NCBI GenBank assembly: GCA_034440615.1
Contig: JAOTOM010002906.1
Location: 1-64,000, forward strand
DNA length: 64,000 nt
Reading direction: 5' to 3'
Source: Ashinkailepas kermadecensis
Lineage: Eukaryota > Arthropoda > Thecostraca > Neolepadidae
A program made the position numbers and the translations under genes. The notes under the pieces are model-generated. The model had not been told where the DNA came from and made no database searches. It saw only the letters and a list, made by a program, of their open reading frames with translations. Below are positions 1 through 45,700 of the stretch, piece by piece (within the stretch, counting starts at the first letter, position 1; each line of letters starts with the position of its first letter).

Positions 1-3000
1 CCAATGTCATGCATACAATCGAAATGCATCAAAATGTGGCTTTCGCCTGTTGTGAGGGTCCACGCATAAGTACCCGACTGCTCTGGTCGTGATTCGTCGT
101 GTCCGTGGGCCGTTGCTGCTGCTGTTGGTCTGACCTGCTCGGTTTGCTCCTTGCCTTGCTGCCGCTGCTGGCCCTGGTTGGCATGCCCACAAGCCGCTGC
201 TGTGTCTCTGACCTTGTCGATATGCCCCCTGGCTAGTTCCAGCTGCTGTGCCTCTGTCCCAACAGTTACGCTCCTCGGACTGGTCCCGCCGCTGCTGTCT
301 CTGGCCTGCCTGGTATGCCCACAGACCGGCTTCTGCTGCTGTGTCTCTGACCTGACAGCCACACTCCCGGGCTAGTTCCCGCCACTGCTGCCTCTGACCT
401 GCCCGGTATGCTCACAGACTGGTTTCCGCTGCTGTATCTGACGTGATCGGTACGCTCCTGGGCTAGTTCCCGCCGCTGCGGTGTCTGACCTGGCAGCCAC
501 ATTCCCGGGCTAGATCCCGCCGCTGCTGTCCCTGACCTGACAGCCACACTCCCGGGCTAGATCCCGCCGCTGCTGTCCCTGACCTGACAGCCACACTCCC
601 GGGCTAGTTCCCGCCGCTGCAGTGTCTGACCTGACAGCCACACTCCCGGGCTAGATCCCGCCGCTGCTGTCCCTGACCTGACAGCCACACTCCCGGGCTA
701 GATCCCGTCGCTGCTGTCCCTGACCTGACAGCCACACTCCCGGGCTAGATCCCGCCGCTGCGGTGTCTGACCTGACAGCCACACTCCCGGGCTAGTTCCC
801 GCTGCTGCGGTGTCTGACCTGGCAGCCACACTCCCGGGCTAGTTCCCGCCGCTGCGGTGTCTGACCTGACAGCCACACTCCCGGGCTAGATCCCGCCGCT
901 GCGGGGTCTGGCCTGACAGCCACACTCCCGGGCTAGATCCCACCGCTGCGGTGTCTGACCTGGCAGCCACACTCCCGGGCTAGTTCCCGCTGCTGCGGTG
1001 TCTGACCTGGCAGCCACACTCCCGGGCTAGATCCCGCCGCTGCTGTCCCTGACCTGACAGCCACACTCCCGGGCTAGATCCCGCCGCTGCGGTGTCTGAC
1101 CTGACAGCCACACTCCCGGGCTAGTTCCCGCCGCTGCTGTCCCTGACCTAACAGCTACACTCCCGGGCTAGATCCCGCCGCTGCTGTCCCTGACCTGACA
1201 GCCACACTCCCGGGCTAGATCCCGCCGCTGCTGTCCCTGACCTGACAGCCACACTCCCGGGCTAGTTCCCGCCGCTGCAGTGTCTGACCTGACAGCCACA
1301 CTCCCGGGCTAGATCCCGCCGCTGCTGTGCCTGACCTGACAGCCACACTCCCGGGCTAGATCCCGTCGCTGCTGTCCCTGACCTGACAGCCACACTCCCG
1401 GGCTAGATCCCGCCGCTGCGGTGTCTGACCTGACAGCCACACTCCCGGGCTAGTTCCCGCTGCTGCGGTGTCTGACCTGGCAGCCACACTCCCGGGCTAG
1501 ATCCCGCCGCTGCGGTGTCTGACCTGACAGCCACACTCCCGGGCTAGATCCCGCCGCTGCGGGGTCTGGCCTGACAGCCACACTCCCGGGCTAGATCCCA
1601 CCGCTGCGGTGTCTGACCTGGCAGCCACACTCCCGGGCTAGTTCCCGCCGCTGCGGTGTCTGACCTGGCAGCCACCCTCCCGGGCTAGATCCCGCCGCTG
1701 CTGTCCCTGACCTGACAGCCACACTCCCGGGCTAGATCCCGCCGCTGCGGTGTCTGACCTGACAGCCACACTCCCGGGCTAGTTCCCGCCGCTGCTGTCC
1801 CTGACCTAACAGCCACACTCCCGGGCTAGTTCCCGCCGCTGCAGTGTCTGACCTGACAGCCACACTCCCGGGCTAGATCCCGCCGCTGCTGTCCCTGACC
1901 TGACAGCCACACTCCCGGGCTAGATCCCGCCGCTGCGGTGTCTGACCTGACAGCCACACTCCCGGGCTAGGTCCCGCCGCTGCTGTCCCTGACCTGACAG
2001 CCACACTCCCGGGCTAGTTCCCGCCGCTGCGGTGTCTGACCTGGCAGCCACATTCCCGGGCTAGATCCCGCCGCTGCTGTCCCTGACCTGACAGCCACAC
2101 TCCTGGGCTAGATCCCGCCGCTGCTGTCCCTGACCTGACAGCCACACTCCCGGGCTAGTTCCCGCCGCTGCGGTGTCTGACCTGACAGCCACACTCCCGG
2201 GCTAGATCCCGCCGCTGCTGTCCCTGACCTGACAGCCACACTCCCGGGCTAGATCCCGCCGCTGCGGTGTCTGACCTGACAGCCACACTCCCGGGCTAGT
2301 TCCCGCTGCTGCGGTGTCTGACCTGGCAGCCACACTCCCGGGCTAGATCCCGCCGCTGCGGTGTCTGACCTGACAGCCACACTCCCGGGCTAGTTCCCGC
2401 CGCTGCGGTGTCTGACCTGGCAGCCACACTCCCGGGCTAGATCCCGCCGCTGCTGTCCCTGACCGGACAGCCACACTCCCGGGCTAGATCCCGCCGCTGC
2501 TGTCCCTGACCTGACAGCCACACTCCCCGGGCTAGATCCCGTCGCTGCTGTCCCTGACCTGACAGCCACACTCCCGGGCTAGATCCCGCCGCTGCGGTGT
2601 CTGACCTGACAGCCACACTCCCGGGCTAGTTCCCGCTGCTGCGGTGTCTGACCTGGCAGCCACACTCCCGGGCTAGATCCCGCCGCTGCGGTGTCTGACC
2701 TGACAGCCACACTCCCGGGCTAGATCCCGCCGCTGCGGGGTCTGGCCTGACAGCCACACTCCCGGGCTAGATCCCACCGCTGCGGTGTCTGACCTGGCAG
2801 CCACACTCCCGGGCTAGTTCCCGCTGCTGCGGTGTCTGACCTGGCAGCCACACTCCCGGGCTAGATCCCGCCGCTGCTGTCCCTGACCTGACAGCCACAC
2901 TCCCGGGCTAGATCCCGCCGCTGCGGTGTCTGACCTGACAGCCACACTCCCGGGCTAGTTCCCGCCGCTGCTGTCCCTGACCTAACAGCCACACTCCCGG

Positions 3001-42700: not shown

Positions 42701-45700
42701 AAAATTGGGGGCATCAGAACAGACCAAAGAAGCCAGGAAGAAGGCACTAAGAATGCTTGGGGCAATACAGAGGAATGTGTCATACAAAAGTGAGGAGGTC
42801 ATCAGGAAGCTTTACTGTGCATATGTCAGGCCACATTTGGAATACTGTGTCCAAGCTTGGTCCCCTAGTTATGAGAAAGATTGTTGGCTTTTAGAGAGAG
42901 TACAAAAGAGGGCAACAAAAATGGTTAATGGTATAGGCAACCTGGAATATGAGGAAAGACTGAAGAAATTGAACATGTTTTCACTTAGATATAGAAGGCT
43001 GAGAGGAGATCTCATCGAGGTTTTTAAATTTGTTCATGGTCAGGAACAGGGATATCTCAGGGAAATGTTTGAATTTAACAGAAATGATGCAATTAGAGGT
43101 CATCAATTCAAAATTAAAGTTAATCACAGCAGGACAAGGTTAAGACAGTCTTTCTTCACCAACAGGGTAGTAGAACACTGGAACCAGCTGCCAGGAACCA
43201 TTGTCAGTAGCAACACACTGAACATCTTTAAAAACGGCATAGACAATCATTATAAGAATAGGGGGATTGTTTTTCTGTATTCCAGGGAAGGTTGATCGAC
43301 AGGGAGGAGTGGGAGTTGGGAGGAGTTTGTAATTGTTGACTGTGTTATGAAATAGCAAGTGAGTCTCTTATTAAGTCTAAATGCTTTATAACTTTATATA
43401 GGGTGTACCTAGCAGTGGATTCAGCACCTTCCTTCGGGATGTGATACTGATGAGATTGTCTATGGTAGCACACTAGGTATGATGGGAGGAGTTTGTAATT
43501 GTTGAGTGTATTATGCAATAGCAAGTGAGTCTCTTATTAAGTCTGAACGCTTTATGAATTTCTGTGGGATGTGCCTAGCAGTGGATTCGGCACCTTCCTT
43601 CGGGATGTGATGCTGATGAGGTTGTCTATGGTGGCACGATGGGTGTGATGGGAGGAGCTTGTGATTATTGAGGGTGTTAGGCGGTAGCAAGTGAGTGGTG
43701 TTAGATGGGCTGGGATATATAGCTTCCTAGGAACTTGGGATAAGGGATTGATTGGGGTGGGAGTATGTACATTCTAGTACCTTTTCTAGATAGGCTTAAC
43801 CCAGATGGGCCCCTGTGGCTCTTATTAAGCCTTAATACTTTATGACTTTATGACTTTTATGACATCACTGGTCGGCCTGGCCGGTGGTGACCCGCAGGAT
43901 ATCACCGGTCAACCCGGCCGGTGGTGACCTGCAGGACGTCACCGGTCGGCCCTGCAGTCCTGCAGGTCAGTAGACCTGCAGGACACCACCGGTCGGCCCG
44001 GCCGCTACTGACCTGCAGGACGTCACCGGTCGGCCTGGCAGGTATACTGACCTGCAGGGCACCATCGGTCGGCCCGGCCCGGCCGCTACTGACCTGCAGG
44101 AAGTCTGCCGGGTGGCGGCACCAATCGGCGGCGTCTTTGGCGCAGTGCTGCACGCCACCGGTCGGCCCGACGTCTCCGCCAGCACGCCGCAGCTCGCAAG
44201 TCAGGGTCAGCAGGCGCACAGTCAGACTGGGACACTCTGAAATGGCGCCGACAGGTCGAAACAGCCCCGTGCATCCACCATACGCCACCAACCACGTCCA
44301 CTACATCTGACATGAAGCAGCCAAACATATTGAGCGAGACAGTACACCTGCATACAGCATATCGTGAAATATGCTGTGAAAGACACACTTTGAAATATCA
44401 CTACAGTGCCACCTGTGCTCCAGGTCGCATGAGTTGAACACTTTCGCTTTCTGTGTATATAACGCAGAGTTGCACACGATACGTCACACGGTAGGGAGAT
44501 AAACATATGTGATGATGACCTCCGGTGATTTTCTGCTGCAAATTCCCGTGACCTTCCTACCTTTCTGGATTACATATCGCAGATATGCACCACAGCTAGC
44601 CTCCATAGACAGCCGTGACAGACTGCCGTGACGAACAGCACAGACGGCCGCCACATACAGTCATTGCAGATGGTCATCACAGACAGCCACCACATACAGT
44701 CATTGTAGATGGGCATCACAGACAGCCGCCACATAGTCATTGCAGATGGTCATCACAGACAGCCGGCACATACAGTCATTGGCAATGGTCACCACAGACA
44801 GCCGCCACATACAGTCCTTGGAGATGGGCATCACAGACAGCCGCCACATACAGTCATTGGAGATGGGCATCACAGACGGCCACCACATACGGTCATTGCA
44901 GATGGTCATCACAGACAGCCGGCACATACAGTCATTGGAGATGGGCATCACAGACAGCCGCCACATACAGTCATTGCAGATGGTCATCACAGATGGCCAC
45001 CACATACGGTAGCCGGGACAAGAGCTGCACTGACCTGAGAAGACCAGCTGGAGCAGCTGCACTGACCTGAGAAGGCCAGCTGGAGCAGCTGCACCGCCCG
45101 GTCTAGATCCTTGGCTTCGCCGGTCATCATGTGTGATCTGGCCAGAAGGTCAAGGGTGCGAGCCCGCAGATCAGCGGGACATCGTGACCTGGCCAGCTGC
45201 TGACCTGCAACACAACAGCTGATCTGTAACACAGCAAATGACCCGCGACTTAACACCTCGCTTGTGATACGGCTGACTTGTGACCTGAAAAGCAACATTT
45301 TTTAGAACATGTCTCGTCCGCCAGTGAACATGAGGAGAAAAAGAATAATGGCGACATACCTAGTGCCAGAAAGGAAATGAAAAGCAAGAAAATGTCACCA
45401 AAAATGGAAGGACTCATGCCAACTTTTTACTCAGTCCCAGCGGTCACATTGTTCAAGCGGTCACAGCTGTCGCGGCGGCGCCACTCACCTATCTGGAGAC
45501 TGTCCTGCAGCCAGCGGACCGCCTGCGGCCAGTCGCGCCGTCGGTATTCCCGCAGACCGAAGTTGAACAGCAGCCGCTGCAGGTACTGCAGCTGCTCGGC
45601 GGTGACGTCACGCGCGCCGCCGGCCTCGCGCACGGCCTCGTCGGCGGCCGCCACGTCGCCGCGCAGGAGCAGCGCCTCAGCGCGCACCACCAGACACGCG

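Follow-up and report, generated by a model that had tools for sequence, protein, structure and literature searches.

Minisatellites built from copies of splice junctions in TEX11 and other genes of the crustacean Ashinkailepas kermadecensis

Introduction

Why should the tandem arrays in the introns of a gene be built from the splice junctions that they abut? The question is raised by a stretch of 64,000 nucleotides of the Ashinkailepas kermadecensis genome (positions 1-64000 of contig C2409, JAOTOM010002906.1, hereafter the window; the assembly, GCA_034440615.1, holds 907.7 Mb in 4689 contigs), which carries the genes TEX11 and TYMS on opposite strands and part of a KIF3B-like gene, here called KIF3B. 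Comparable structures, in which exon-intron boundaries are tandemly duplicated in the manner of minisatellites, have been described as mirages in the Adh and globin genes of amphioxus (PMC3087553, which cites the original Adh study), and the amphioxus PGBD5 and troponin C genes have been added to the list (PMC3902484). In both papers regular splicing is stated to be undisturbed.

Junction copies in the adjoining introns

Alignment of each TEX11 junction to its own intron reveals copies that cross the exon edge at the donors of exons 2, 3, 4, 6, 7, 9 and 12 and at the acceptors of exons 10, 11 and 13; the match at the exon 12 acceptor is weaker (score 24). Donors and acceptors are both duplicated, the acceptor cases including that of TYMS exon 2. 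The original prediction, that most large arrays are built from the abutting junction, with about nine such junctions in the two genes, is borne out: all nine junctions named carry crossing copies by alignment to their own introns. The exon 10 and 13 acceptors of TEX11 come in addition, as do crossing copies in KIF3B, a twitchin-like gene, CCT2 and two MutS genes, and the observation is real, confirmed and extended beyond TEX11 and TYMS.

When at least six bases are required on each side of the edge, a crossing copy lies near 9 of the 25 TEX11 junctions and 1 of the 5 TYMS junctions, as compared with 10 of 403 exon-interior control points at the same cut-off. The count for TEX11, TYMS and KIF3B takes in all 54 junctions, some KIF3B exon ends being set 1 to 2 bases off; the copy at the TEX11 exon 10 acceptor fails this rule and was found by the other two tests. 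A stricter test that uses exonic bases only (24 nt) is passed against exon-interior controls by 8 of 39 junctions of the three genes, namely the TEX11 donors of exons 2, 6, 9 and 12, the TEX11 acceptors of exons 10, 11 and 13, and the TYMS exon 2 acceptor (score 28 vs a control maximum of 23). For the TEX11 donors of exons 3, 4 and 7, which fail it, equally high scores are reached by 34%, 7% and 25% of control 24-mers; the reason is that the copies of these donors contain little exonic sequence (12, 9 and 14 bases, respectively). In the same three genes, exonic 24-mers at most 12 nt from the edge have a copy in the adjacent intron in 13 of 76 cases on the donor side and 5 of 80 on the acceptor side; for those more than 72 nt from the edge the figures are 0 of 649 and 0 of 586. 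Chance similarity of short edges is ruled out at eight junctions by the exon-interior controls together with this fall with distance.

Many units retain the junction exactly. The exon 4 array of TEX11 (about 429 copies) has exact AGGTACCGGGACC in 320, and the exon 12 array (54 copies) has exact ACCAGGTGGGC 42 times and ACCAGGTGGG 53 times. In the exon 6 array the exact CATTG/GTGGGT is present in 14 of 21 copies, so that its assignment to every unit was too strong, and in the exon 11 array CTCACAG/GGAGG occurs four times vs five units in which the AG is lost. The TYMS exon 2 acceptor does have junction copies as had been claimed; phase places the acceptor at CCCAG/GCCGGTTTCCGCTGCTG, which precedes the AG originally implied by five bases. 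By eye, the 31-bp array at 20056-21129 resembles a diverged continuation of the TEX11 exon 6 donor array. Other TEX11 arrays are not junction-derived (39 bp x 9.5 in intron 2, 19 bp x 16.5 in intron 3).

Outside TEX11 and TYMS crossing copies are found at 6 of 110 junctions: 1 of 24 in KIF3B, 2 of 38 in the twitchin-like gene, 1 of 24 in CCT genes and 2 of 24 in MutS genes. An array of seven 73-bp units contains the KIF3B acceptor at contig position 65960, and a 30-bp array contains the CCT2 donor at L027:7451; the MutS acceptors are in L028 and L029, two MutS genes. The twitchin-like gene, which is on the same contig as TEX11, has a crossing copy at the donor at 87341 and 81-bp units with about 60 exonic bases at the acceptor at 93599; the latter acceptor is doubtful because these units are open in frame, and is one possible reading of an array that could be a coding repeat instead. 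The 38 twitchin-like junctions were picked from gene-finder output by continuity of the Ig, FN3 or kinase domains, a few being mended by eye. The CCT count uses the 24 best-scoring junctions, two of them from L025, and drops L020 (a second copy of L019), L024 (inside L027), the L023 acceptor and the last donor of L027. The MutS count uses the 24 best-scoring junctions of 12 exons, some of whose ends are uncertain. A CCT3 donor beside a 30-bp array (L019) is of uncertain position; its best-scoring site has no copy and was counted as a non-match, and lower-scoring candidate sites there do have copies (scores 40 to 53).

Probable tolerance of duplications across exon edges

Among the test points of TEX11, TYMS and KIF3B, 944 of 1824 in intron interiors, 10 of 403 in exon interiors and 11 of the 54 junctions score as duplicated. 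Tandem arrays cover about half of the intron-interior points; per position, then, junctions stand between the two kinds of interior, with fewer repeats than those of introns and more than those of exons. Duplication has largely spared the exon interiors. The suggestion that duplication is tolerated only around exon edges holds to the extent that it is rare inside exons; it is not confined to edges.

The explanation that we consider probable is that duplications arise gene-wide, are kept in introns or across exon edges by means of the exon-proximal splice site, and are purged from exons. Short direct repeats would probably be the sites of the slippage or end joining that gives rise to short tandem duplications throughout genes, and any within coding sequence would be purged by selection. 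Where a donor is straddled the first donor would stay, and where an acceptor is straddled the last. If this exon-proximal site is used the message is unchanged and the remaining copies are all intron, so that the duplication would be harmless and persist. By unequal exchange straddling duplications would expand to minisatellites, many of whose units would carry a decoy splice site. Because junction-straddling copies are expected to be harmless and to expand into arrays of decoy sites, the arrays are taken to be mirages as in amphioxus. In TEX11 the exon-proximal copies yield an intact frame, which fits this account, as do the spared exon interiors and the length differences between assembly copies; that the arrays are neutral, how the copies arose and that the exon-proximal splice site is the one used are inferences. 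In the two-copy cases the coordinates leave an incomplete further copy of about 4 to 14 bases (72=2x32+8, 118=2x57+4, 80=2x34+12, 108=2x47+14), and these leftovers suggest short direct repeats at the ends of the duplicated segments.

Unit length also favors tolerance, as it shows no coding constraint: among 11 junction arrays (ten in the window and that of KIF3B) only the 48- and 57-bp units are divisible by 3, or three units if that of exon 3 is 39 and not 37 bp. The same lengths bear on the proposal that the copies are used, i.e. that alternative donors or acceptors add protein repeats and the arrays are functional coding or regulatory variable number tandem repeats (VNTRs). The exon 12 and exon 9 units, at 48 and 57 bp, are indeed in frame and open, the minus-strand frame over the exon 12 array is stop-free for 951 codons, and the twitchin-like acceptor 93599 likewise has an 81-bp unit that is in frame and open. 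However, eight or nine of the 11 units shift the frame, the acceptor AG is lost in the five exon 11 units mentioned above, and the TEX11 protein model of the barnacle Amphibalanus amphitrite crosses the exon 12/13 join directly, without such repeats, all of which makes use of the copies quite improbable.

Placement of arrays relative to chance

Expected numbers at exon edges were obtained from a model in which each array is collapsed to one unit and began as one unit placed at random in the intron or across its edges. The array-holding introns are mostly short once collapsed (in most cases about 230 to 1300 bp, with a few at 1.6 to 7.5 kb), and chance therefore places some arrays at edges. The test on TEX11, TYMS and KIF3B comprises 28 arrays; it omits 15087-15720, of the same family as 14802-14926 and split from it by an insert, and divides 44639-45094 in two, the parts having different units. 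Unit lengths were set by hand where the listed period was a multiple. Arrays that cross a junction by at least six exonic bases number 8 of 28 vs 2.94 expected (1.99 in a cruder test with all introns pooled), KIF3B contributing 1 of 10 vs 0.89.

A number of results weigh against tolerance as the whole explanation. Of the 28 arrays, 16 lie within 20 nt of a junction or across it vs 5.95 expected (p = 1e-5). TEX11 alone has 10 of 17 such arrays vs 3.76 (p = 4e-4), and KIF3B, a gene that the original prediction did not discuss, 5 of 10 vs 1.85 (p = 0.016). Junction-spanning arrays with at least six exonic bases are 7 of 17 in TEX11 vs 1.86 expected, and crossed junctions are 9 of 25 in TEX11 vs the 6 of 110 elsewhere (Fisher p = 1.6e-4). 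Exon interiors do hold some near-copies, at the 10 of 403 points of TEX11, TYMS and KIF3B and at 18 of 468 control points of the twitchin-like gene, all of the latter in two long exons with internal similarity. For KIF3B, the twitchin-like gene and CCT2 together, 9 of 25 arrays are near an edge vs about 4.0 expected (p about 0.01) once the array at 93627-93799 is restored and the 87341 donor copy is counted as spanning. This recount, which uses rounded probabilities and assumed intron lengths, makes a mild general attraction of arrays to exon edges possible, and such an attraction may exist.

These excesses are what would be predicted if splice junctions were hot spots at which short AG/GT direct repeats, co-transcriptional structures, or a stalled polymerase or spliceosome start tandem duplications, and the near-junction counts of TEX11 and KIF3B, together with the recount just given, support that idea. 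However, without the two added cases the KIF3B, twitchin-like and CCT2 test gives 7 of 24 near-edge arrays vs 3.89 expected (p = 0.07) and 2 spanning arrays vs 1.74; this test omits 9 of 20 twitchin-like arrays whose intron end is not fixed, including the acceptor-spanning 93627-93799, as well as the other CCT genes and the MutS genes. The twitchin-like gene alone has 1 of 11 near-edge arrays vs 1.86. With the two cases counted the spanning arrays are 4 vs about 1.9 (p about 0.1), so that outside TEX11 and TYMS they are not clearly above expectation either way. Moreover the GC content (guanine plus cytosine) of the edges does not separate crossed from other junctions, and TEX11 was picked for its striking look. 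A general hot spot at splice junctions is therefore considered unlikely, and the nucleation of duplications at exon edges that had been proposed is hardly needed outside TEX11, in which the excess does lend it support. The related argument that splice sites would not be hit by random placement suits TEX11 and goes too far as a general statement.

Tolerance accounts for most of the pattern, and TEX11 remains an outlier. The strong edge effect is particular to TEX11 within this sample, a gene noticed for being striking. Its exon GC is the highest, 70.8% vs 62.7 to 66.1% in the other genes; GC as the cause of the excess was rejected on comparison of edge GC in TEX11, KIF3B and the twitchin-like gene, which is the same at crossed and other junctions (p = 0.48). 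The excess may be due to chance and to the way in which the window was selected, or to some property that TEX11 has as a meiotic gene. In its strongest form the second possibility would make TEX11 a true hot spot: germline genes transcribed during meiotic breaks would gain junction tandem duplications, splice sites would seed minisatellites, and introns would grow outward by hundreds of decoy sites. We regard this as a long shot.

Arrays and the origin of introns

Since the units contain AG/GT, the arrays could record or cause intron birth by the model of Rogers (1989), in which tandem duplication of AGGT-containing segments makes a new intron (cited in PMC3087553, which proposes this for mirages); the RdRp gene of potato is a described case (PMC4974935). 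The duplicated stretch does contain AG/GT here as in that model. The model predicts that donor and acceptor are copies of each other in register, and not one of the 38 introns compared in TEX11, KIF3B and the twitchin-like gene fits it (TYMS excluded; mismatched pairs 0.6%), a result from which old diverged cases would escape. Every TEX11 array is rooted at one intron end, introns 9 and 12 have unlike arrays at their two ends, and the introns with rooted arrays also contain other sequence. In contrast to AGGT intron gain, existing introns appear to have been enlarged at one end, donor and acceptor not being mutual copies. The link to intron creation that had been drawn fails the in-register prediction and is not supported by the sequences compared, and an origin of introns from these arrays is judged highly improbable.

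Length differences between assembly copies

Array length varies between assembly copies. Two contigs overlap across the whole TYMS intron 1 array (window 1-5042; L012 5555-6597 = C875:65555-66597) and disagree in its length: one unit motif matches 98 times in one copy vs 12 times in the other, and 396 of the first 400 bases are identical. A CCT3 intron array, which may not span a junction, measures about 2.2 kb vs 0.3 to 0.5 kb. Among CCT3-like assembly copies (C3901:400-8501; C4646:270700-275617; L033, L020, L034, L019) one intron differs by about 3 kb, about half or more of it within an 80/57-bp array. For both TYMS and CCT3 the copies may be alleles.

The unequal TYMS arrays, with contig C875 terminating just within TYMS exon 2, are also the kind of evidence that would be expected of an artefact in which the assembly collapsed or inflated repeats, or in which misplaced exon ends made coding repeats look intronic. 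Such an artefact is scarcely credible as the source of the pattern, since the TEX11 exon ends are fixed by phase and protein alignment independently of the arrays, diverged units and transposons inserted in the arrays are not artefact-like, and the same kind of array is seen on unrelated contigs.

Gene models and features of the window

TEX11 on the minus strand was resolved into 13 exons from 46230 to 10069, the search not extending to its last exons. All introns are GT-AG and the joined exons form a single frame of 852 codons, of which 821 align to the A. amphitrite protein with 56.5% identity (872 alignment columns, 58 gaps); Testis-expressed protein 11 of that species is the sole protein match of the assembled gene. 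The exon 4 acceptor was set at 35833 by reference to the barnacle protein, another candidate being out of phase. For TYMS exon 2 the model was compared with thymidylate synthases of solved structure, and the best match is 6k7q, a shrimp enzyme. Exon 1 is on contig C875 at locus L012 by reading; an intron position shared between intron 1 and human TYMS was considered, is not exact and was not used. KIF3B exons start at 57452 and extend past the window end. The names KIF3B, twitchin, CCT2, CCT3, MSH2 and MSH6 are provisional and were given by likeness to known protein sequences; the CCT and MutS family assignments come from Pfam searches. The features are collected in Table 1.

Table 1. Arrays, duplications and exons of TYMS and TEX11 in the window
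Feature	Position	Strand	Score or basis
47-bp x 97.5 array, TYMS intron 1; units similar to the exon 2 acceptor with about 14 exonic bases	289..5007	+	crossing score 37
34-bp x 2.4 duplication across TEX11 exon 13 acceptor	10250..10329	-	score 45
48-bp x 54 array across TEX11 exon 12 donor; 46 exonic bases inside	10649..13244	-	score 116
47-bp array across TEX11 exon 11 acceptor; insert like a short interspersed element (SINE) splits it at about 14935-15085	14802..15720	-	score 56
56-bp x 33 array, TEX11 intron 10, at 41 nt from the donor; a counter-example, in which no copy of the junction was found	16389..18234	-	
57-bp x 2.1 duplication across TEX11 exon 9 donor	18593..18710	-	score 97
47-bp x 2.2 duplication at TEX11 exon 7 donor	19368..19475	-	score 37
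31-bp x 21 array across TEX11 exon 6 donor	21286..21941	-	score 56
28-bp x 429 array, from exon 4 donor through most of TEX11 intron 4	23597..35664	-	score 42
37-bp array (in part listed as 39) at TEX11 exon 3 donor; insert like a long interspersed element (LINE) cuts it	43861..44094	-	score 43
32-bp x 2.2 duplication across TEX11 exon 2 donor	45023..45094	-	score 59
TYMS exon 2	5027..5206	+	protein comparison, phase
TYMS exon 3	6104..6224	+	
TYMS last exon	7243..7678	+	
TEX11 exon 13	10069..10269	-	protein alignment
TEX11 exon 12	13199..13398	-	protein alignment
TEX11 exon 11	14713..14821	-	protein alignment
TEX11 exon 10; in intron 9 a diverged copy of the acceptor edge lies about 50 nt upstream (score 31)	18276..18388	-	protein alignment
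TEX11 exon 9	18661..18804	-	protein alignment
TEX11 exon 8; no clear junction copy	18995..19100	-	protein alignment
TEX11 exon 7	19472..19634	-	protein alignment
TEX11 exon 6	21926..22123	-	protein alignment
TEX11 exon 5; no clear junction copy	23162..23284	-	protein alignment
TEX11 exon 4	35656..35833	-	protein alignment
TEX11 exon 3	44094..44236	-	protein alignment
TEX11 exon 2	45067..45204	-	protein alignment
TEX11 exon 1	45489..46230	-	protein alignment

TEX11 intron 3 holds two LINE-like insertions (window 36300-41600 and 42410-43330), and a plus-strand frame of 936 codons at 38607-41417 in this intron resembles a reverse transcriptase whose end is RNase H-like. By eye, dispersed copies of a SINE-like element derived from a tRNA were recognized at window 14935-15085, 59200-59365 and 6560-6720 and at L012 3300-3405. 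In KIF3B, the exon at window 61972 has an apparent GC donor (ACCGAG/gcgagt), and a GGAGCC hexamer array at 62098-62155 lies within coding sequence (Gly-Ser repeats) as a tolerated in-frame exonic repeat.

Relation to known systems and significance

Ordinary intronic minisatellites are VNTRs, and the arrays described here share their unit size, copy number, homogeneity and length variation; they differ in that the units contain exon-edge sequence. With the amphioxus mirages, as described in the papers cited above, they share tandem units across donors or acceptors of several genes, with AG/GT signals in many but not all units. Mirage length differs between haplotypes, and here the TYMS and CCT3 arrays differ between assembly copies that may be alleles. 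Other features are distinct: the host is a crustacean and not a cephalochordate, many junctions of one gene are affected, junction units measure 28 to 57 bp within the window, and 73 bp in KIF3B, vs the 10 to 160 bp quoted, and copies reach about 429 vs at most 6 quoted for the globins.

A literature search found no paper on junction arrays in barnacles, which is weak evidence as its coverage was partial. In the A. amphitrite TEX11 protein model (residues 735-780), the exon 12 acceptor edge AGLGAPELPGLVSA occurs twice, 32 residues apart; to judge from this repeat, a duplicated exon 12 acceptor edge, i.e. a mirage, has probably been read as coding.

As far as the literature search shows, splice-junction minisatellites are thus extended from amphioxus to a new animal group, the crustaceans. 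In TEX11 intron 4 the donor of that intron recurs exactly about 320 times, which provides a natural experiment on how the spliceosome chooses the exon-proximal site among equals. The arrays also carry a warning, in that gene predictors may take junction copies as coding, as apparently happened in the Amphibalanus TEX11 model.

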